A model generated the notes under the pieces. The model saw only the letters and a program-made list of their open reading frames with translations. It did no database searches and was not told the origin of the DNA. Positions 10,581 through 44,474 of a stretch of DNA of 64,000 nucleotides are shown in pieces (the first letter of the stretch is position 1; every line of letters begins with the position of its first letter). A program made the translations under genes and the position numbers. Source of the DNA: Verrucomicrobiota bacterium (GTDB taxonomy: Bacteria; Verrucomicrobiota; Verrucomicrobiia; Limisphaerales; UBA9464); the NCBI GenBank assembly GCA_947471985.1, contig CANIZL010000020.1, positions 1 through 64,000 of the forward strand, given 5' to 3'.

Positions 10581-11657
10581 TCACCGGACGCCGAGGCCGA
10601 TCACTTCGCGGAGATAGCGGAGACTCCGTTCCAGCTCTCCGCGCTGGCTCTTCGGATCATTCGAATCGTGCTGGGGAATCGCCCGTCCGCGGCGCACGAG
10701 TGCTTCAAATTGCGCCAGTTCGGCGGCGGGCTTTTTGGGGAAGTTCTTCCAGAAATCCGCTTCCAGATAGGGGAACTCCACGGCGAACCCGCCAATGGTT
10801 TCCACGTTCACCGCCGCCTGCGGGCAGAGTTGGGCGTAGCGTTGGAAATAGGCCTTCCAATCAATGATCCCGCCTTCACCAAAAGCAGTCCACTGCACCT
10901 TCGCGCCCTTCTCGGTGGCCCAGACGGCGGAGTCCCGGAGGCTCGTGGAAATCGTATAGGGGCCGAGGATTTCCAGACTTTGCCGGGGATCCTCCAGCGT
11001 CCACAGGGCGTTGCCGGAATCCAGATTGGCGCCGACCCAATCGCGGCCGGCGGTTTCCATCAGGCCGACCAGCTCACGGGCGGTCATGTCGCCGGCGTGG
11101 TTTTCGATGGCCACCTTGATCCCGAGGTCGCGGGCCAGACTTCGTTGGGACTGGAGCACCCGGACCGTGTCGGCGATGCGGGCCTCGATGCCGCCGGGCG
11201 TGGCGCGGTCTTCGCGGCCGCCGAGGACCACACGGAAAAGGGGCGAGCCGACCGCCTTGGCGAGTTTCAGGCCCAGCGCGAGATGCTCCTCCGCGGTGCC
11301 CCAATCGCGCTTGAAGCGGACGGAGGTGGGGCAAATCGACCAGGATCCCAGCAGGATCGCCAAGCCCTTGTCTGCGGCGTACTTTTGCAACTCCGTAGCG
11401 GCGGATGCTTCGAGTGAACCGAGCCCGGGGAGGTCGGTGATGAAGAGCGTGTCGAGCTTCAGATCGGCTGCGAAATCCACGAGCGCGCGGCCCTTTAAGC
11501 CGAGGGCGCGCACCGCGAAGTTGTCCATGCCGAGCGGGATGCGGACGCTTTGGCCGGCGGCGTTGGAGAGGCCGGCAGCGCGGACAGACCCGGGCCCGGT
11601 GGTGGCGAGAACTGCCCCACTGACCGCCAGGGTGCGAACGAAATCACGTCGATTCAT
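10581..11657 (-). CDS. Exported sugar phosphate isomerase/epimerase-like TIM barrel
   Basis: A 358-residue protein with a Tat-like signal (MNRRDFVRTLAVSGAVLA) and an AP endonuclease 2-type TIM barrel, found in sugar isomerases and epimerases. Candidate metal ligands sit in the usual places: Glu in VAIENHAGD (about 186), Asp in GANLDSGNA (about 213), and Glu in NVETIGGF (about 285). The Tat signal fits a cofactor-bearing enzyme folded before export to the periplasm. It lies 30 bp upstream of the sugar permease on the same strand, which supports a role in handling an imported or modified sugar. The exact substrate is unknown. Exported members of this family are common in Planctomycetota and Verrucomicrobiota. 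Confidence 0.82.
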   Translation of the reverse strand: MNRRDFVRTLAVSGAVLATTGPGSVRAAGLSNAAGQSVRIPLGMDNFAVRALGLKGRALVDFAADLKLDTLFITDLPGLGSLEASAATELQKYAADKGLAILLGSWSICPTSVRFKRDWGTAEEHLALGLKLAKAVGSPLFRVVLGGREDRATPGGIEARIADTVRVLQSQRSLARDLGIKVAIENHAGDMTARELVGLMETAGRDWVGANLDSGNALWTLEDPRQSLEILGPYTISTSLRDSAVWATEKGAKVQWTAFGEGGIIDWKAYFQRYAQLCPQAAVNVETIGGFAVEFPYLEADFWKNFPKKPAAELAQFEALVRRGRAIPQHDSNDPKSQRGELERSLRYLREVIGLGVR

Positions 11658-12043
11658 GCGGAAGAACCCCTACTTCGCATCTCGACGCCCCTCAAGGCAA
11701 GGGCGCTTTTGCCGTAGGGAGGAATTCGGGCGTTCCTCGGCATGATCTTGGAGAAGATGGGGAGGAGTTCGCGGTGGGAAACGGCGTGGAATTCACCGGA
11801 CGCGTCAGAAGTCGCGATAGCGTCGTGGACTGCGGTAGTCCCCTACCGCTTTGGAGTGGGATGTGGAAGCGCCCGTGGTGTCCGGAGACACTGCGGTACC
11901 TGCCCGCTGGTGATTTGGGCGCCGATCCGACTCGCGAGTTTGATTTCCAAAGCGTCAGAGGACTGCCGCAGTCCACGACCTCGCGGGATTCTCACGCCGT
12001 GTGAGCCGTCGCGATGGCGTCGTGGACTGGGGAGACTCCCGAT
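11658..12043. other. Gene-free stretch holding a REPIN-like element
   Basis: This 386-bp stretch lies between the TIM-barrel gene and the CxxCH dehydrogenase gene. It holds the inverted hairpin pair listed separately (about 11810-11990) and a possible degraded third arm at about 12006-12036, where GTCGCGATGGCGTCGTGGAC is kept but the hairpin is weakened. No coding signal was seen. Confidence 0.75.
11810..11990. repeat. REPIN-like element: two inverted REP hairpins
   Basis: The left arm reads AGTCGCGATAGCGTCGTGGA, then a hairpin GCGGTAG-TCCC-CTACCGC at 11832-11849, then TTTGGAG. The right arm is an inverted copy with its hairpin at 11952-11969 (GCGTCAG-AGGA-CTGCCGC, one mismatch). The distance from hairpin edge to hairpin edge is 138 bp. 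The same architecture, with 137 bp, is found twice at 36.5-36.9 kb. The inner sequence is also related when one copy is turned round (compare 11914-11938 with the complement of 36567-36590). Confidence 0.75.
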
Positions 12044-15000
12044 TTACTTGGCGGCCGTTTGGACGGGTTCGAGTCGGAGGTCGCTCCAATAGGCGAATTC
12101 CCAGTTCCAATCCGTGGCGGCGTTTTCCAGGCGTAGCACGATGCGGCGGCCGGCGAAGCGGGCGAGGTCCAACCGGACGTTGCGCCAACGGACGCCGTCC
12201 GTGGCGTGATCGATGACCTGCCGGTGGAGAACCTCGCCGTCGGCCACGATGCGCAGTTCCCAATCGCCGCGTTCGTGCGCGGCCACGGAGAAGCTCAGGG
12301 CCATATGCTCGTCGGGCGCAAAATTGATCGCGCGCACCAAGGCCGCGGGTGTACGGGCATCGATGGGATGCGTCATCAGCACGTTTTTGCGGCCGGCGAA
12401 TTCCGGGAACTTCGCCGGGGCGCCTTCAAACGGCGGGCAATCGACCTGCCAGCCCGGCGCCCAAAGTGCGAGCGCCTCGCCGTCGGTGGGACGTTCCACG
12501 GCAGCGGACGTGTTTTCGCCGGACAGTTCCTTGCGCCGTTCCTCGTTCAGCGGCTTGCCGTCCTGGGGCGGGGCCAGGATGTACCAGATCAGATTCCGGA
12601 AATCCGCGTCAGGCATCTGTTCCAGTCCTTCGGGCATCACGGAGTTCTCGGTGACGGTCAGTGATTTCACGTCGCCCTTGTTCACGATTTCCTCGGCGGG
12701 GCCGGCCATCGCCAGGCGCACGCGCACCGCGGTGTTTTCCACCAGGCGCCCGCTTAGGGTGCGTTCGTCGCGGGTTTCGACGATTACGTTTTCGTAGCCC
12801 TGACCGATGATTTCGTTCGGATGGATGACGTTATGCAGCAGCGCGTCGAGCGAGCTGCGGCCAACGCCAGTGAGGTCCGGGCCCACCTGGGCGCCTTCGC
12901 CGTGGAGGAGATGGCAGACGAGGCAGGTTTTTTTCGCCAGTTCATGTCCGGCGGCGAGATCCACCGGGCCGTTGAGCACCACCCGGCGTTTTTCAGCAAT
13001 GAGCTTGAGTTTGTCGGCCGGGGTGCCGCGCACTTTGCCGAAGAGTTGTTCGGCCTTCGCCCGTTCCGCGTCGCCCTTGTCGTTGGCCAGGGTGCGGATA
13101 ACCGCGGGCGGCAGTTCGCCGCGCTTGATGTCGCCCTTTTCAACGGCGTTCAAGAGGGGCCATTTCCACTGCCAACGGGTGGGTGCGATCTCGGCGACGG
13201 CGGCGCGCACGGCGGGTGAATGGTGACTCCAACCCGCGAGCAACAACTTGCCGGAATCTTCGTTGCCCACTTCGGTGAAGGCGCGCACGGCGGCGACCTT
13301 GACGGCGTCGGGCGCGGGGCTGTCGATGACGGTCTGCAGGGCTTTGCGGGTGTCGTCGGCCTTGTGTTGGCGCGAGGCTTCAATGGCCTTCAATCGTTCC
13401 GGCACGGGGGTGCCGGCGTCGGTGATCTTGTCGAACAACCCTTTCAACGCGGCGGCATCGCCCCAAGTGGTGCCCAGGCGCTGGGCGCGGGTGACGACTT
13501 CGGGATTCGAACTGGCCAGCCACTTCTTGAGCAGCGGCTCCGTGGGATGTTGCGGCACCATGGCCTTGCCGCGCTGGCCTTCGATCAAACCATCGAGCAC
13601 CGCCACGAGCAGGGGCGAGGTGACGTTGAGTTCCTCGGCCAGTTCCAGGCTTTTATCGACCAGCCAGTTTTGACGGGCATCGCAGAAGCGGCGGACGGTT
13701 TTGTAGGCGAGCCGGGCGGACAGCGGGAGATGGGATTCGCCATTTTCGACAAACCATTTGGCCGTCGCACTGGGATCGTACATCAGGCTCGGCTCCAAGG
13801 CGGTCCAGATCAGAAAGGGCAGGTCGCGGTCGGTGGTGTCCTTGGCGTGATCCAACAGAGCCAGGGCGACTTCCGCGACGAACGGGCCGCTGGTGGACGG
13901 TTCCGTGCGCGGGGGCGAATTGATTGTCAACGAGCCGCTGCTGTACTCGCGCAGGGCGCTGGCGACACCGGCCTGGACGGTGGCTTCCTCATCGGCCGCC
14001 AGGCGTTTGAGACGTTGCAGCGAGGCGTCGGTGCATTGATTCCATTCGCCGGTGAACAGGGCGGCCCAACGGCGCAGGGCGGGCTCGGTCGCGGCGGCGG
14101 CATCGTCGAGAATCGCATTATCGATCTGGCCGGAACTGTAGAGCGTCCAAAGCGAAGCCAGCCGGGTGTTGAGATTGGGGCCAAAGCGGAATTGCTGGAT
14201 GAGTGCCGCCTTCACGGTGGCAATGTCGCTGCGGCCATTCAGCAGGCGTTGGGCCGTGCGGCGTTGCCAGACATTGGCGTGACCCAGTTGCTTGACCAAT
14301 TCCGCGCTGCTCAACCGGCCCAGATCGTAGTCGGCGGCGGGACGGGACGGCACGGGCTGGCCGGGTTGATCACCTGTGTAAACCACCCGCCAGATCCGAC
14401 CGTGTTCGCGATCCACGCCACCGGGATCGGCGTTGGCGTTCTGGTAGCAGGGGTACTTGTCGTACCAATCCATGATCCACACCGCCCCATCGGGTCCCGT
14501 CTGGGTGCTGACCGGCATGAACCATCCGTCGTTGCCGCGCACGAAATCTCCGTTCGCGGACGCCACGAAGGTGCTGCCCTTCGTCGTCAGGCGATCCCGA
14601 TGGATGGCGTTGTCGTGGATGTTTCCCTGCAGGGCCATGCCCTGGAATTCGGCTGGATATTGATTGCCCTGGTAGATGTCCACCCCGGCGTAGGCCGCCA
14701 TGTGATGGGCATGATCGACGATGCTGGGCAGCACTTCATAGGCGTACGGATACGGCGTCTGGCCGGCCTGACGCTGATACATGCCGCCCGGGGCGAGGTG
14801 GAAAAAGTGATCAATGACGCAGGCGCTGACGAAGGCATTGCCGGCGGCATCGAAGTCCACGCCCCACGGATTGCTGGTGCCTTCGGCGAAGACCTCCAGG
14901 CGTCGATTGCGCGGCTGGAAGCGCGCGACGCCGGCAGTGAGGACGGTCGGGGTCCCGGGTTTATCGGGATCGGTGGTGCGGGAAATGGTAAACACCCCGT

Positions 15001-16554: not shown

Positions 16555-18090
16555 ATGTCGTTCCCGCTTGAACCCGATGACGCCGCGAATCGCGCCTTAC
16601 AGGCCTCCGTGCACCCGGCGGATTGGAAGAATCCCCCGGCGCGCGGGCGCTACAATCTCGTGGTGGTGGGCGGCGGCACGGCGGGACTGGTGACCGCGGC
16701 GGCGGCGGCGGGTTTGGGAGCGAAGGTGGCGTTGATTGAACGACACCTGTTGGGGGGCGATTGCCTCAATGTCGGCTGCGTCCCGTCCAAAACACTCCTG
16801 CGCAGCGCGCATGCGGCGGCGGAAATGCGGGCCGCGGCGGACCTGGGCGTCCGGGTGCCGCCGGGGGATTGGGTCGATTTTGCCGCGGTCATGGACCGGG
16901 TGCGGCGCGTGCGTGCGGAGATGGCCCCGCATGATTCCGCGGCGCGCTTTCGGAGTTTGGGCGTCGATGTGTTTTTCGGGGCGGCGCGGTTTACGGATCG
17001 GACGACGTTGACCGTCGGGGATCAGTCGCTGCGGTTTCATCGGGCGGTCCTGGCCACCGGCGCCCGGGCGGCGGTGCCGGAGATTCCGGGGCTGGCGACG
17101 GCCGGTTTTCGCACGAATGAAACCATCTTCAACCTGACGGAGCGACCGCGCCGGCTGCTGGTGTTGGGGGGCGGTCCCATCGGGTGTGAACTCGCGCAAG
17201 CGTTCGTTCGCCTGGGCAGTGAGGTGACGCTGTTGCATCACGGGGATCGGTTGTTGCCCCGGGAAGATCCGGATGCGGCGGCGATGCTTGCGGGTCGATT
17301 GCGGGCAGAGGGCGTGAACGTGGTGTTTTCCGCCGAGGTGCTGGCCGTGGCGCGGGAGGGCGACCGCCGGACGGTGACCTATCGGGCGGGCGAACAGACG
17401 CAATCGGCGACGGTGGACGAGATTCTCGTGGCCACGGGGCGAAGGCCCAACGTGCGGGATCTCGGCTTGGAATCTGCGGGCGTGCAGTACGACGAAAAAT
17501 CCGGTGTCCGGGTGGACGACTTTTTGCGGACCACGAACCCGGCAATTTATGCCTGCGGCGATGTCTGTCGGCCGGAGAAGTTCACGCACGCGGCGGACGT
17601 CGGTGCGCGGATTGTGGTGCAGAATGCGCTGTTCAGCGTGGGGCCATTGGGCCGGCGGCGGTGGAGTGCTGTGAAGATCCCCTGGTGCACCTACACCGAT
17701 CCGGAAGTGGCGCACACCGGGATCACGCTGGCCGAGGCGGCGGCGCAGGGGCTGGCGCTCGAGACGTTTCAACAGCCGCTGACGCAGGTGGATCGGGCGA
17801 TCACGGACGGCGCCACGGAAGGATTTGTAAAAATCCACGTCCAGCGCGGCACGGATCGCATCATGGGCGCGACGGTCGTGGCCCGGAATGCGGGGGACTT
17901 GATCAGTGAGATCAGTGTGGCCATGGCCGGCGGAGTAGGTTTGGGTCGGCTGGCCGGGGTGATTCATCCGTATCCGACGCAGGCGGAAGCGATCCGCAAA
18001 TGCGGGGATCTCTACAATCGCACCCGGCTGACACCGACGGTGAAGACGTGGTTTGGCCGGTGGCTGCGGTGGCGGCGGGGCGGGGAATGA
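16555..18090 (+). CDS. Mercuric reductase-like FAD/NAD(P) disulfide oxidoreductase
   Basis: A 511-residue flavoprotein. The FAD-binding dinucleotide motif VVVGGGTAGLVTA lies near residue 39. The redox-active disulfide is in GGDCLNVGCVPSKTL (Cys at about 69 and 74). The NAD(P) site is LVLGGGPIGCELAQ near 203. The second FAD motif, IYACGDVC, is near 335, and the C-terminal dimerisation domain ends in HPYPTQAEA (about 475), with a His where dihydrolipoamide and mercuric reductases have HAHPT. It lacks the C-terminal vicinal Cys pair of MerA and has no HMA domain, so mercury reduction is unlikely. The ATG at 16555 is chosen over an in-frame TTG two codons earlier. It follows the TVP38 gene in the same direction. 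Confidence 0.92.
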   Translation: MSFPLEPDDAANRALQASVHPADWKNPPARGRYNLVVVGGGTAGLVTAAAAAGLGAKVALIERHLLGGDCLNVGCVPSKTLLRSAHAAAEMRAAADLGVRVPPGDWVDFAAVMDRVRRVRAEMAPHDSAARFRSLGVDVFFGAARFTDRTTLTVGDQSLRFHRAVLATGARAAVPEIPGLATAGFRTNETIFNLTERPRRLLVLGGGPIGCELAQAFVRLGSEVTLLHHGDRLLPREDPDAAAMLAGRLRAEGVNVVFSAEVLAVAREGDRRTVTYRAGEQTQSATVDEILVATGRRPNVRDLGLESAGVQYDEKSGVRVDDFLRTTNPAIYACGDVCRPEKFTHAADVGARIVVQNALFSVGPLGRRRWSAVKIPWCTYTDPEVAHTGITLAEAAAQGLALETFQQPLTQVDRAITDGATEGFVKIHVQRGTDRIMGATVVARNAGDLISEISVAMAGGVGLGRLAGVIHPYPTQAEAIRKCGDLYNRTRLTPTVKTWFGRWLRWRRGGE

Positions 18091-36269: not shown

Positions 36270-37150
36270 AATGTGTGAGTGAATTGCGCGACGTTGGCGC
36301 GACGGATTCCGGCAAGCAACAGAACCGTGGCGGTGAATGCTGGGCGGCGTTGGGGGCAAAAGCCGTCTTATCCGTTTTAATCCGCCACGTGGAGGAGCGG
36401 AGGGGAAAGGACCTGTGCGCCCGCTTGAATCGGAGCGGACTCTGGAAAAAGCGGGTCTGGGGACCTGTTCCTTTTCGAGAAGACGCTCCCGCGAGCACCT
36501 GTGCGGTCGTGGAAGGCCGCAGGTCGTGGACTGCGGCCGCCCTCTGCCGCTTTTCTCCGAAAACCTGCGAGCCGGACCCACGTCCGAATACCCAGCGCTT
36601 ACGCATCATCATTCTCTGCACGCCCGGTGTTGGTTCGCGCCCCTCTCCAAAGCGGCTGAGGACAACCGCAGTCCAAGACGCTCCCGCGACTCCAAATGCG
36701 GCCGGCGAATTCCGCCAGGTCCTGGACTGCGGCAGCCCTCTGCCGCTTTTCTCAGAAAACCTGCGAGCCGGACCGACGTCCACAAACCCAGCGCTCGCGC
36801 ATCACTCTTCTCCGCATGCCGGGTGCTGATCCGCGCCCCTCTCCAAAGCGGTGGAGGACAACCGCAGTCCAAGACGCTTGCGCGAGTCCTGATGCGATGT
36901 GTGAATCCCCCGAAGTCGTGGAGTGCGCCCACCCCGGGTCTAACCGGCCAAAACCCCTTGCCCCTCGGAGCCCGCACCGCAAAATGGGGTTCATGTACCA
37001 CTTCGCGCCAAGCCACACCCCGTTCCGCGGAGTCTCGGGAAACCCAGTCCCAACCCTTAACCCTTTCGGCCGCACACCCCAGCCGGATGCGCTCGGCGGT
37101 CCTTGGTGGTGACCGGCGTGCCCGTCTGCTCACAATCTCATTCTTAAAGT
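36270..37150. other. Repeat-rich gene-free stretch
   Basis: 881 bp without a credible gene. The central part holds two tandem REPIN-like elements. The rest (36270-36500 and about 36890-37150) has no recognised signal. Open frames across it change frame between copies and read as translations of the repeats. It separates the divergent dehydrogenase and redoxin genes. Confidence 0.8.
36505..36887. repeat. Tandem pair of REPIN-like elements, 196-bp period
   Basis: Two direct copies with a period of exactly 196 bp at two separate anchors: CTGCGGC at 36531 and 36727, and GCGCCCCTCTCC at 36637 and 36833. Each copy contains a plus-oriented hairpin (36533-36550; 36729-36746, perfect GCGGCAG-CCCT-CTGCCGC) and a minus-oriented one (36652-36669; 36848-36865). 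In each, hairpin edge to hairpin edge is 137 bp. The copies differ at scattered bases, so the duplication is not recent. The same element, in the opposite orientation, occurs at 11.8-12.0 kb. Confidence 0.8.
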
Positions 37151-39590: not shown

Positions 39591-41018
39591 ATGCCAACCT
39601 TATTTAGCCCGCCGACCTCCTGGGCCGCTGCGGATGTTCCGAAGGCGTCCTCCCCGTGGTTCCGCCGGATTGCGCTCTTCGCGGTCTTGGTGCTGGGGTT
39701 GGCCGCCGTGGGTGTCGTGGTCTACTGGCCGGCGTCGAAGGCGACGCCCGTCACTGTCGGGAGGTCCAATGGCACCGAGATTTGGATCGATCCGCCCAGC
39801 GTGGGAAAGCAGCATGTGTTCGGCCGGGAATTGTTGCCCGCTTGGTTGCGTGCGCGGTTGCCCTTCGTCATTCAGCGATCCCGCTTCTTCAATTTCGACG
39901 TGGCCCAGACGATCAGTACCGATCGCGACGATTTGGTAATCAGTTTGCGGGGGTATAATCGGTTGCTCGGCGAGCCGGTCGATGTGCAGGATTTTGCGGT
40001 GGGAATCCGGGCGGCGAACGGCGATATCTATCCGGCCATTGGGCGGTGGGCCATGGGGGGAGTAAACGGGATGATGCGGAGCAGCGTGAGTTTCCCGGGG
40101 TGGCCCCGGGGGGAACGTACGTTCCATTTTATTTTGATGCCGTGGTCCCGTGGCAAGGGGCCGAAGGAAGCGTCGTTGGAGGTGGATATTCCCAACCCGT
40201 CGTTTCGCGAAGCTGCGGAACCCAGCTGGAGTGCGCAGCCGCTGCCGGCAAGTCTCGCCACGAATGGGGTTGAAATTCGGCTCGTCCGCCTGGAGCACTA
40301 CACCAACGGTGGGCCCGGAATTTATTGGGAAATCCCGAGCGTTCATTGGCGTCCGGTGTTTGAGTTGTGGCGGAACGGTCAGCTGGACCCCGATTGGGAG
40401 TTGGCGTCGTGGGAGGCGGTCGCGCAGAGTGGGAATCGAGGCCAGAAATTGGGGTTGCACGAGACCCCGCTTCAGATCGACGGGCAATGGTTTCGTCGGG
40501 GCGCGGCGTCCGTTTTAGCGACGGATCGGCTTTGGAGTTTCACCAACCTCAGCTTTCCGCTGCCGACGAATGGAACGGCGATGGAGATCGCAGCGGAAGG
40601 CCTGGGGTACCCGGTGGTGGTGGCTGGGCTCTTTCCGGCCGGGGACCACACCTTCGAAAATGGCCAGTATAAAGTCGGCCCGCCGGAACGGTGTGTCGGG
40701 TGTGCCGGCTGGATGAATCGACAAACGGTGTCTCGCACGGGAGTCACGAATGAGTCCACGATCAATCCGCTGAACGATGTCTTGATCCTCCGCAGCCGGG
40801 ATTTTTCGACCGACACCCGATTGATCGGGCGCCTGACCGATTCGGCGGGGCAGGTCCATGTAGGCGAAGCCAAGACGGGATGGACTCCGGGCGGGCCGGG
40901 TGAACGCCTGGTGGCGCGGGATTTTACGAACCGCATCGCGGCCGGACCGGCCCGACTTGAACTGATCGTGCAACCGGAGTTGCGGGCGCGTTTTGTGGTT
41001 CGACCGACGCTGCCGTAG
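39591..41018 (+). CDS. Unrecognised membrane-anchored extracytoplasmic protein
   Basis: A 475-residue protein with no recognised family. A membrane helix (RIALFAVLVLGLAAVGVVVYW, about residues 25-45) is followed by ~430 residues that would lie outside the cytoplasm and look mostly beta-stranded, with many Trp, Arg and Gly. A Cys pair (ERCVGCAGWMNRQ, near 368) is the most distinctive motif. Near the C-terminus, TDSAGQVHVGEAKTGWTPG suggests a beta-sandwich. The ATG at 39591 is the best start; the frame is open from 39483. The last codons and stop (40997-41017) resemble the DNA repeat that begins immediately after the gene, so the C-terminus may have been altered by the repeat. Confidence 0.65.
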   Translation: MPTLFSPPTSWAAADVPKASSPWFRRIALFAVLVLGLAAVGVVVYWPASKATPVTVGRSNGTEIWIDPPSVGKQHVFGRELLPAWLRARLPFVIQRSRFFNFDVAQTISTDRDDLVISLRGYNRLLGEPVDVQDFAVGIRAANGDIYPAIGRWAMGGVNGMMRSSVSFPGWPRGERTFHFILMPWSRGKGPKEASLEVDIPNPSFREAAEPSWSAQPLPASLATNGVEIRLVRLEHYTNGGPGIYWEIPSVHWRPVFELWRNGQLDPDWELASWEAVAQSGNRGQKLGLHETPLQIDGQWFRRGAASVLATDRLWSFTNLSFPLPTNGTAMEIAAEGLGYPVVVAGLFPAGDHTFENGQYKVGPPERCVGCAGWMNRQTVSRTGVTNESTINPLNDVLILRSRDFSTDTRLIGRLTDSAGQVHVGEAKTGWTPGGPGERLVARDFTNRIAAGPARLELIVQPELRARFVVRPTLP

Positions 41019-41497
41019 TTCTTGGTTCTTGGTTCTTGGTTCGACCGCCGTTGCCGTACGCGGGGGCGTCTTTTAGGTAGGCGGGGAGCGCCGGTGTTCG
41101 AATGGAGACGCCGGAGAACATCGTTGGGTAGTCCTACGCCTTATCGCTCCCCGTTGGGGCGCAAACCGGCCGGGGCGGAGGACCCAGTCCGCTGGGCTGG
41201 GCTAAGAAATGCCGCACCTTTGGCGCTGGGGAATGGGATCGATAGAGACCGGAACCATTCGATCTTCTGCGGAGGCAATTGGGATTGGGCAGAGGAACGT
41301 TGCCCTTTGGCGCCGGGAATGGGATTCGTGGCGGCAAGAACGGGACGGGCTCGATATAGTATTCGGTCCAAGGGGCCATCGTGCGTGGGGCGTTTCTCTG
41401 GGGGGTGGTGGCTCGCGGGACCCCGGCAGCGACGAAAATGGGGCAAAAATCGATTGTCGATCTCGGGGTGTTATGAAATTCTAACGGCGTTGGCGCC
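41019..41497. repeat. Repeat block left of the ankyrin gene
   Basis: 479 bp without a credible gene, built from repeats. The heptamer TTCTTGG is present three times (41019-41039), then GGTTCGACCGCCGTTGCCGT (41038-41057). A block from TTATCGCTCCCCGTTGGGGC to GGAATGGGATCGATAG (41141-41244) recurs at 44190-44293. A degenerate copy of TGCCGCACCTTTGGCG plus GGGAATGGGAT lies 91 bp further on (41301-41333). No coding signal was recognised. Confidence 0.75.
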
Positions 41498-44014
41498 ATG
41501 GACCCATTCCGAACTTACATTTTTTCGTCGTTCCCCGCCCTTTTGCGGCTGTGCCGATATTTTGGGATGGGGTTGATCGTTGCCGTTCTTGGGGGACCGC
41601 TCCTGCTGCTGCGATCGGCGGAGATCCTACCGGTGACACCCGAGGAAGCGGGGCGCTGGCGGAGTGCGCCGGAATGGCAGCAATTGGAGAGTGCTTTTGA
41701 ACGGGGCAATGAGGCGGAGATCCTCAAACTATTTCGCGCTCAACCACGGCTCGCGCTGTGCTTTGAAATTCCGTTCAAGTCGATTATAGGCTGGGCCGCG
41801 GCGAACAACGCCACCAATCTTCTGGCCCAGGCGCTGCGCGGAGGCTGGGGCAGCGGTGCTTCCACGCCGGAAAGGTTTCGTGAACCGCCGCTGGGTGATG
41901 CGGCGGAGGCGGGGTGGCCTGATTCGATCCGGATGTTGCTCGCGTCCGGGGCCGACCCGGAGCCGGCCAACTCTTTTGGCGGTACTCCATTGCAGCGCCT
42001 GCTGAGCAATTGGAACCTCGCGGGCCAGCAAGTCGCGCCCAAACTCCAGAAGCAGGAATCACTTCGTCTTCTATTGCACGCTGGTGCCAACGTCTTTGCC
42101 CTACATCTGCCCGGAATAGCCGCCATAACTTTGATTCCAGGGCCGGACGATCCGTCTCCAATCGCGGAGATCCTGACCAACGCACTGCCAAGCCGCTCGG
42201 TGAACACGAACGGGAACACCTTGCTGCATGTCGCCGCTTTTACCGGTTCACCAGAGTCGGCCGTTGTGCTGGCTCAGCGGGGCATGGACATCGGGGCGAC
42301 GAATGCCCTGGGCTGGACCCCGTTGCACGCCGTGGCGGCAACGCTCGAAGCGGATCCGCAGTTCCGGTGGAACGCTGACATAGGTGAATGGAAGTCCTTG
42401 AGCAGCGGCTTCAGTCTCCCCGCCGAGGTTCGCGCGGCCACGGCGTCGCAGCTGCTGGCGCTGGGCGCGAGGCACGATGTGTTCAGTGCCGCGGGACTTG
42501 GTGATCTCCCAGCGTTGCGAGCACTAATCAAAGAGGATCCGACCCGGGTTCGGGGGCGGGATTTGCGGAATCGAACAGCTCTGCACTGGGCCGCCTTGGG
42601 TAATCAGGCCGGTACCGTGCGGGAACTGCTGGCGGCCGGGGCGGAGGTCGGCGCCGCCGACCGGCAGGGTAATACGGCGTTGCATCTGTCCCTGTTGACA
42701 GTACAGACGGATGTCCTGGCGGAATTGATCCGGGGCGGCGCGCCTTTGGATATCGCGAATCGTGATGGAGTGGTCCCGCTGGGCTTCGCGGTGGAACACG
42801 AGGAAGCCCTGATTAGGCTCCTAGCCGCGGGCGCACAAGCGAATCCTGCAAACGCCGAGGCACCCCTGATCCAGGCCGCCACCCGGGCCGCGCTCGTTGC
42901 ACAGCAGAACCCCAGCGTGCCAGTGTCCCCGCCGGGATGGCCGGCGACACCATTTTATCGGCCGCCGAAGGAGTTGGATGCGGTGCAGCGATTGCTCCGG
43001 GCGGGTGCGCGGGTTAGCGCGAAAACTGCGGACGGCGTTACATCGCTGGAAATCGCCTGTCGGCGGGGCGCCCTCAATCTAGTCGAAACACTGGTCCGCG
43101 GTGGGGCGCGGCTGACAGTCACCAATTCGCAAGGGGATCCGGTCTGGTTTGATTTGCTCCGATACCCGGCGGAGTTGGCCTACAGCGAGCCCGCCACCGC
43201 TCTGCACCAGGTGGCGACCCGCCTCCCGGCAGCGGCGCAAGGCGCCCTGCGCGGTGGCGGCCTCATGCCGGCGACACCCACGACGCAGCGGAAACCCGTG
43301 CTGCCGTTCATTCAGGAATTGGGTGCGGAACTCACCCGAACCAACGCCAATGGCCGAACGGCCCTGCATGCGCTCGTTCGCCCGGCCCGGTCCGTCGAGC
43401 CGCTGATGATCTGGCCCTTCGACGAACCGTCGGCAGGCCGGGCGCCGGGTGCAGCTGCCGATCCGGCTGCGGTCCGCATTAAATCGCTATTGACCGCCGG
43501 TCTGTCGCTCGAGGCGCGGGATCGGGACGGGTACACTCCCTGGCTGCTGGCCATGCGCGCTTTGGACTATGATCTCGCGAAACTTCTGGCGGCCGCCGGG
43601 GCCAATCCCGCGGCCACCAATGCGGCCGGACAGAATGCGCTGCACCTGATCTGTGAGCCCGATGCCAAGGTGGGATGGTCCGGGACGAACGCCCCGCCGC
43701 GCTTCATCGGGCCGCTCATCGGGAAACTGGTAAAGCAGGGAGTTGACCCGAAGGCCCGGGATCGCGAGGGCCGCACGCCCTTGCACTATGGAGTTGCCCG
43801 ATTCAATCCGCTGTTCGTCGGGGTGGAATTGGTGGATGCCGGCGCCGATCCCAATGTTCAGGACAACACGGGCCGAACACCGATGCAATGGGCCGCGGAA
43901 CTGGGGCGGCAGGATTTGGTACGCTTCTTCCAGGATCCCGTCGGGGCCCATCCGTTCAAAAGGCCTTCTAAACGGCCGTCCGGGCCCCCGCCAGCCCCCG
44001 CACCCGCGCCGTGA
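41498..44014 (+). CDS. Large exported ankyrin-repeat protein
   Basis: An 838-residue protein with an N-terminal hydrophobic segment (YFGMGLIVAVLGGPLLLL, about 21-38), so it is probably exported or anchored. Ankyrin repeats run through most of the rest, each with the TPLH/TALH and LLxxGA pattern: NTLLHVAAFTGSPESAVVLAQRG, GWTPLHAVAA, RTALHWAALGNQAGTVRELLAAGAEV, NTALHLSLL, NALHLICEP, and RTPLHYGVA. The repeats are irregular and separated by longer loops. The C-terminal ~20 residues are Pro-rich (PSKRPSGPPPAPAPAP). Ankyrin domains bind other proteins; the partner is unknown. The gene is bracketed by direct repeats, and the next gene is on the other strand. A second start (MGLIVAV) is possible at 41567. 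Confidence 0.88.
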   Translation: MDPFRTYIFSSFPALLRLCRYFGMGLIVAVLGGPLLLLRSAEILPVTPEEAGRWRSAPEWQQLESAFERGNEAEILKLFRAQPRLALCFEIPFKSIIGWAAANNATNLLAQALRGGWGSGASTPERFREPPLGDAAEAGWPDSIRMLLASGADPEPANSFGGTPLQRLLSNWNLAGQQVAPKLQKQESLRLLLHAGANVFALHLPGIAAITLIPGPDDPSPIAEILTNALPSRSVNTNGNTLLHVAAFTGSPESAVVLAQRGMDIGATNALGWTPLHAVAATLEADPQFRWNADIGEWKSLSSGFSLPAEVRAATASQLLALGARHDVFSAAGLGDLPALRALIKEDPTRVRGRDLRNRTALHWAALGNQAGTVRELLAAGAEVGAADRQGNTALHLSLLTVQTDVLAELIRGGAPLDIANRDGVVPLGFAVEHEEALIRLLAAGAQANPANAEAPLIQAATRAALVAQQNPSVPVSPPGWPATPFYRPPKELDAVQRLLRAGARVSAKTADGVTSLEIACRRGALNLVETLVRGGARLTVTNSQGDPVWFDLLRYPAELAYSEPATALHQVATRLPAAAQGALRGGGLMPATPTTQRKPVLPFIQELGAELTRTNANGRTALHALVRPARSVEPLMIWPFDEPSAGRAPGAAADPAAVRIKSLLTAGLSLEARDRDGYTPWLLAMRALDYDLAKLLAAAGANPAATNAAGQNALHLICEPDAKVGWSGTNAPPRFIGPLIGKLVKQGVDPKARDREGRTPLHYGVARFNPLFVGVELVDAGADPNVQDNTGRTPMQWAAELGRQDLVRFFQDPVGAHPFKRPSKRPSGPPPAPAPAP

Positions 44015-44474
44015 TTCAAGACCCGGAATTGGATGGAGGGATGGAGTGGGGGAGTGATGGAGTGATGGTTCGTGGTTCGTGGTTCGTGGTTCGTGGTTCG
44101 TGGTTCGACCGCCGTTGCGGTTCGGGGGGAAGGGAGAGCACCGTGGTTCGCTTTGAAATGCGGGAGGACCCAACGGGTGGCCTTACTCCCTATCGCTCCC
44201 CGTTGGGGCGCAAACCGCGCGGGCCGAGGACCCAGCCCGCTGGGCTGGGCTAAGAAATGCCGCACCTTTGGCGCTTGGGAATGGGATCGATAGCGATCGG
44301 ATTGGCCGGCTTTCCGAGGTCGACCTTGGGGCAACGACTCGGGTGTGCCGCACCTTCGGCGTGGGGGAATGGGCAGTGGGGCAGTTGCGCCCGAGATTTT
44401 CGGAACGGGAACGGTCGTCCTCCTCACGCATTTGTTGTTAACGGTCCGCGATTCGGCCGCGCGGGCAGCTTGGG
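44015..44474. repeat. Repeat block right of the ankyrin gene
   Basis: 460 bp with the same repeat set, in the same orientation, as the block left of the ankyrin gene. The heptamer GGTTCGT occurs almost six times (44067-44107), leading into GGTTCGACCGCCGTTGCGG. The TATCGCTCCCCGTTGGGGCG to GGAATGGGATCGATAG block is at 44191-44293, and a degenerate copy of its last part lies 87 bp on (44346-44372). No gene or terminator was recognised here. Confidence 0.75.

Follow-up and report, generated by a model that had tools for sequence, protein, structure and literature searches.

The window, by which we mean the whole 64,000-nt stretch of DNA analysed here, contains three inverted pairs of a hairpin arm of about 34 nt, at positions 11822-11979, 36523-36679 and 36719-36875. 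Each arm is built of GTCNTGGACT, followed by a hairpin of the form GCGGYAG-NCCN-CTRCCGC and then by TTTGGA. In the first pair, the left arm (11822-11855, forward strand; 57.4 bits, E = 7.5e-11) is an A arm, a REP consisting of the tag GTCGTGGACT, the hairpin GCGGTAG-TCCC-CTACCGC (11832-11849) and TTTGGA; outside it lies a tail (11809-11821, forward strand) typed as A, with the mini-hairpin CGC-GATA-GCG (11813-11822). A 90-nt inner spacer (11856-11945) separates it from the B arm on the reverse strand (11946-11979; 57.4 bits), a REP whose hairpin, GCGGCAG-TCCT-CTGACGC, has one mismatch. The two 34-nt arms are 88% complementary and form a head-to-head dimer. Beyond it, a B-type tail and linker (11980-12018), recognised from a 51-nt repeat at 11785 and 11982 (family D12), lead toward the degenerate remnant of a further arm (12019-12032, forward strand; GTCGTGGACTGGGG), which matches the arm profile weakly.

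The second site holds two units that together make a 196-bp tandem repeat, with 89 nt between the arms of each. Unit 2 comprises an arm with a B-type tail (36523-36556, forward strand; 45.6 bits) and one with an A-type tail and the stem GCGGTTG/CAGCCGC (36646-36679, reverse strand; 53.3 bits), and a tail-to-tail linker of 39 nt (36680-36718) joins it to unit 3, in which a B-tailed arm with the stem GCGGCAG/CTGCCGC (36719-36752, forward strand; 48.0 bits) faces an A-tailed arm (36842-36875, reverse strand; 55.8 bits). The start of a fifth, degenerate arm (36915-36929, forward strand; GTCGTGGAGTGCGCC) was read directly from the sequence. Judging by the degenerate arms near 12019 and 36915, both sites may be what is left of longer arrays. 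A preliminary description of this DNA had reported two inverted hairpin arms spanning 138 nt from outer edge to outer edge (11832-11969) and copies at 36.5-36.9 kb measuring 137 nt from hairpin edge to hairpin edge, and both distances were recovered; the inner part, which it had called related in inverted orientation, is so over 128 nt at 73%.

Folded as single-stranded DNA, the 158-nt unit reaches -46.8 kcal/mol (z = -8.4), and none of 200 shuffled sequences was equally stable. The RNA of the surrounding stretch also folds better than its shuffles (z = -7.6). This strong RNA fold is what one would expect if the elements were now structural sequences maintained by the host (terminators, gene-end RNA hairpins, or DNA-binding sites of the kind proposed for BIMEs) and inherited vertically, their mobility long over and any RAYT association a relic, a reading that we regard as possible but doubtful. 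Against it, convergent gene ends are not preferred in the window's genome (7 convergent, 11 tandem and 9 divergent settings in a crude ORF survey), and the interval 11500-12200 contains a single terminator-like site, near the shuffle mean. A terminator role was accordingly rejected, there being no convergent-gene bias and no excess of terminator-like sites.

We built a covariance model from 42 arms of the window's genome and searched it against the 6.38-Mb, 180-contig assembly, which yielded about 136 arms, many contig ends among their locations. Of 57 arm clusters, 3 lie within a long ORF by crude longest-ORF gene calls. In the fetched stretches of this genome, the spacer measures 88-97 nt in 52 of 53 inward pairs, whose tails lie outside, and falls at 88-93 nt with few exceptions; all 37 outward pairs have a linker of 38-42 nt; same-orientation neighbours occur as one pair only. 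By simple arithmetic, less than one neighbouring pair is expected from 136 arms scattered at random over 6.38 Mb. The preliminary description was to fall if a paired inverted arrangement at ~137 bp proved absent genome-wide; pairing at a fixed distance is instead found throughout the genome. The arms are therefore high-copy short palindromes arranged mostly as inverted doublets at fixed spacing, which is the organisation of REPINs.

The outer tails are of two kinds, A (CGC-N3/4-GCG), seen 60 times in this genome, and B (CC-N4-GG), seen 56 times, and 49 of the 52 pairs with both tails typed are A-B heterodimers. Since the pairs are mostly A-B and the spacings fixed, the arrays read A>90<B-39-A>90<B, an organisation resembling that of E. 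coli BIME-2, which is composed of Y and Z2 REPs. They are often tandem with a 196-bp period, the units being joined by the 38-42-nt linkers.

Arms were detected in 33 of 58 genomes of the order, the window's own included, with at least 121 arms in some. The inward spacer is genome-specific, at about 90, 56 or 10 nt; the outward linker is constant across several genera (37-42 nt). Among 84,980 species genomes, the exact arm pattern occurred in Verrucomicrobia MAGs; the exceptions were one contig each under the labels Methylacidiphilum, Acidimicrobiia and 'uncultured bacterium', of which the Acidimicrobiia contig may be mis-binned. The pattern was not found in viral contigs. Across genomes the stem takes the forms GCGGTAG/CTACCGC, GCGGCAG/CTGCCGC, GCGCCAG/CTGGCGC and GCGCGAG/CTCGCGC. 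In a set of 189 unique cores drawn from about 20 assemblies, 92.8% of cells were paired and the co-variation score was 0.209 versus 0.080 ± 0.006 after shuffling, a procedure that leaves the relatedness of the cores in place (0 of 500 shuffles reached the observed value; slid controls ≤0.064). The recurrence of four different complementary stems in different genomes would be hard to explain otherwise. Co-variation of the stems, the other point on which the preliminary description was to stand or fall, is thus present, and the hairpin is kept by compensatory changes. Its observation that stem variants come in matched pairs holds strongly between genomes and less well inside the window's genome, where imperfect stems such as GCGGTTG/CTACCGC and GCGGCAG/CTGACGC are frequent.

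Inverted repeats at a fixed distance could also be the terminal inverted repeats of MITEs derived from a DDE-type insertion sequence. We consider this extremely unlikely: inward dimers, outward dimers and arrays are all present, the hairpins within the arms co-vary, the gene that arms do flank encodes a Y1 RAYT (below), and no autonomous DDE element bounded by arms with target duplications was seen. An unbiased clustering of proteins, run for any family recurring beside arms, returned none, and so no recurrent transposase family.

Using PF01797 as a probe for a partner gave 26 Y1 matches in the window's genome and 31 in six arm-rich relatives, none of them arm-associated at the profile used. 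The partner escaped this probe owing to the low Pfam scores of the cognate RAYT (the protein described next reaches 15.9 of 23 bits); two cognate RAYT genes did appear among its results, as low-scoring matches only. By listing arm pairs 350-2800 nt apart with ORFs between them, we found in a relative, G022, a protein of 191 aa encoded between two dimers. NCBIfam model NF047646 identifies it as a REP-associated tyrosine transposase (E = 3.5e-21, about 75.7 bits with a curated cut-off of 80), and this model is matched by all 14 aligned members of the cognate RAYT clade, which are ~190 aa long. Matches to the cognate RAYT occur in 18 of the 58 genomes of the order and are strong (E<1e-50) in 16, mostly as a single copy. 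Each of the 18 strong gene copies is flanked on either side, at no more than 300 nt, by hairpins that carry the tag GGA[C/G]TGC and mostly end in CGCTTT; shuffles predict 0.12 genes with such two-sided flanks. Two-sided tagged hairpins were absent from the other Y1 loci searched (0 of 9 alpha or beta RAYTs and 0 of 29 others).

The window's arm profile recognises the flanking arms in G022, G030, G005, G010, G009 and G041. In other genomes the tag and the lower stem are kept and the hairpin tops vary widely, one example being GCGGTGAC-TT-GTCACCGC of G036; in G026 and several others the RAYT-flanking arms belong to a hairpin subfamily other than the counted arms. Arms are present in 15 of 16 strong-RAYT genomes versus 18 of 42 genomes without (Fisher p = 3.7e-4). 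Searches by protein and by profile gave no match for the cognate RAYT in the window's own 96%-complete, 180-contig assembly, and it was likewise not found in the arm-rich genomes G019 and G008. The Y1 (RAYT-type) transposase flanked by the same hairpin, which the preliminary description had proposed to look for, is therefore borne out in relatives and not in the assembly from which the window comes. Its broader suggestion, that Verrucomicrobiota may have an equivalent of REPINs, gains support from the pairing, the co-variation and the RAYT flanking in relatives.

The window's genome does carry multicopy Y1 transposases, the alpha and beta RAYTs, and the stop codon of one alpha-RAYT (C1:131128-132189) is followed at 36 nt on the 3' side by an arm, which would fit mobilisation of the elements by these enzymes. 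We judge this very unlikely. The homology among alpha copies ends about 70 nt short of that arm, the other alpha and beta genes have no arm or tag nearby, the beta genes have repeats of their own, and several arm-rich genomes lack these RAYTs. Given the homology boundary, we set aside the alpha-RAYT next to the arm as a coincidental neighbour, an unrelated mobile RAYT.

We next turn to the cognate protein and the tag. A profile of 14 members had TnpA-REP 4er8 as its only PDB match (E = 5.6e-9); the catalytic Tyr115 of 4er8 aligned with an invariant Y132, and its HUH motif with HYH (YYH in one member). With an HUH motif, a single catalytic Tyr and homology to TnpA-REP, the protein is a RAYT. 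The arm tag is GGA[C/G]TGCG...CGCTTT, and the hairpin foot reads TGGA[C/G]T-GCG in arms of the window's genome and of relatives alike; GT[AG]G at the hairpin foot is absent from both sets, so these are not canonical GTAG REPs. Nor do they fit the CGTC REPs (CGTC beside an AT-starting stem of 8-9 bp, a CCA tail and no RAYT): CGTC occurs in the A tails only, 7 nt off the stem, the stem starts with GC, and a RAYT is present in relatives. In the E. coli protein, GTAG is read by W94, Q95, E100, H101 and R104 (PMC6006769). At this guide-reading site the new clade keeps W and keeps E or has D, with Q95 replaced by F or H, H101 by T and R104 by T or S. The replacements of Q95, H101 and R104 fit the absence of GTAG, and the replaced residues may read GGA[C/G]. 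We lean, if modestly, toward a separate Verrucomicrobiota RAYT clade that uses a GGA[C/G] guide for GTAG and whose guide-reading residues changed alongside, RAYT and REP having co-diversified across the order with hairpin subfamilies tied to each genome's RAYT.

Taken as a whole, we put at roughly 85% the probability that the pairs are REP dimers (REPINs) in BIME-like tandem arrays, members of a Verrucomicrobiota REP family that has a tag other than GTAG and a RAYT clade of its own, and processed as single-stranded DNA. The unit would then be a non-autonomous element: both arms would fold as hairpins on the strand exposed in replication, a RAYT dimer would bind both hairpins, and the RAYT tyrosine would cut near the tags, re-insertion of the piece multiplying the units. 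Tandem arrays could arise from repeated insertion or from slippage between units. For the window's own genome we infer mobility from the dispersal of related copies together with the RAYT, and the cleavage chemistry is likewise presumed.

The history of the copies bears both on REPIN mobility and on maintenance by the host. Two closely related genomes, G019 and G022, have dimers in common at orthologous sites, as vertical inheritance of host-maintained sequences would have it; the sites compared were shared, unresolved or had the dimer collapsed in G022, and no insertion event was caught at them. One apparent empty site between the two was rejected, as the alignment shows a palindrome collapse and no insertion. 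At this site G022 has a solo hairpin and G019 an outward dimer, and the 90 nt absent from G022 are bounded by direct repeats CTGCCGC, so that the solo hairpin looks like the product of a palindrome-mediated deletion; a central deletion of such a kind has been proposed for 'double-foot' REPs (PMC6006769). Divergence of the copies in the window's genome (median nearest identity 87%, against 93% for the less diverged copies of G026 and VHDE) and the lack of a cognate RAYT in its assembly also speak for host maintenance; G026, whose dispersed copies are near-identical at up to 99%, speaks against it. Under the REPIN reading, the unit population of the window's species is probably decaying, or else its RAYT gene is hidden in repeats that were not assembled, because the copies have diverged (87%) and no RAYT was found.

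The arms are themselves a target. An insertion sequence with the ends CTCATCCTTACCCACA and TGTGGGTAAGGGTGAG has 19 junctions, of which 17 clearly and 1 in degenerate form lie at the hairpin loop of an arm; both orientations occur. The sites are on contigs C30, C38, C46, C51, C87, C100, C104, C105, C154, C161 and others of the window's assembly (G000; L054, L071-L081, L225-L232). Contigs of this assembly break at the element, and its transposase is missing from the assembly; in relatives, a search for further copies by end sequence gave chance-like matches. REP-targeting insertion sequences belong to several families (IS1397, IS621, ISPpu9/10, ISRm22; PMC1525189), and the present one resembles them in inserting at one position in REP hairpins, differing in that its terminal repeats, CTCAYCCTTACCCACA, are ~16 nt long and that it is apparently accompanied by an 8-bp duplication, AGTCCTCT.

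Detailed work on REPIN/RAYT systems comes mainly from Gammaproteobacteria, in which the key tag is GTAG. Of these systems, E. coli BIME-2 (alternating Y and Z2 REPs; TnpA-REP/yafM, RAYT group 2) is similar in having two kinds of arm alternating in opposite orientation in tandem arrays, a RAYT flanked by the same dimers (here in relatives) and a RAYT profile that matches 4er8; it differs in that our elements lack GTAG, carry the tag GGA[C/G]TGCG...CGCTTT and have Q95, H101 and R104 replaced (F/H, T and T/S). The REPINs of Pseudomonas fluorescens SBW25 (Bertels & Rainey 2011, PMC3116915) share the inverted REP doublets, a spacing fixed per genome, a foldable spacer, compensatory changes and RAYT adjacency, but differ in sequence family, tag and hosts, and the long tandem arrays of A/B heterodimers are a feature of the window's species. 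REPs in Verrucomicrobia themselves were already known, namely GTAG-17 to -20 of Opitutus terrae (PMC3733652). Compared with the GTAG/CGTC superfamilies of that study, our elements are also verrucomicrobial REPs with HH and TT dimers, heterodimers and clusters, whereas their foot is neither GTAG/GTGG nor CGTC with an AT-starting stem, and their spacers measure 88-93 or 38-42 nt. Among the TnpA-Y1 proteins of PMC6006769, whose text does not name Verrucomicrobia, subclass 2.8 shares the HYH form of the HUH motif and a proline-rich N-terminus, and class 3 has REP-like hairpins without GT[AG]G; compared by their descriptions, both differ, subclass 2.8 being reported with GT[AG]G REPs and class 3 with a CnGA foot. 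We found no description of a GGA[C/G]TGCG tag or of such a RAYT clade in Verrucomicrobia in the openly searchable literature.

This is a known kind of element, here carrying a different recognition tag. With another tag, altered tag-reading residues, and hairpins and enzyme that vary in parallel among relatives, the RAYT's choice of REP and of cut site becomes testable by swaps. The family further accounts for a large class of the intergenic repeats of Verrucomicrobiota genomes and for many breaks in their assemblies.

Several other repeats were encountered. Between 48952 and 49903 the window has four copies of a ~42-nt repeat with the core GATAGCGAGCCTGGCACC, seemingly a second, unrelated REP-like family. 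Repeats of this type also flank the 348-aa beta-RAYT genes of the window's genome (L036, L037, L040, L042-L046), which number about 18 copies and share 86-92% identity over ~1.4 kb. Judged by these copies, the beta-RAYTs appear to move themselves; the usual RAYT, unlike them, is single-copy. The alpha genes are a second mobile RAYT lineage (L067:2059-3157, with copies on C3, C40 and C137), 92-95% identical, in which the 3' homology stops within the C-terminal coding region. In G019, dispersed repeats of ~260 and ~155 nt (L268:9089-9351 and 17432-17588) have dozens of matches in G022 and are unrelated to the arms. Within the window, finally, the segments 41014-41253 and 44078-44301 (families D3, D9 and D10) are 85-90% alike and lie ~3.05 kb apart, bracketing a gene at 41498-44014; this arrangement suggests a duplicated flank or a mobile unit around that gene.
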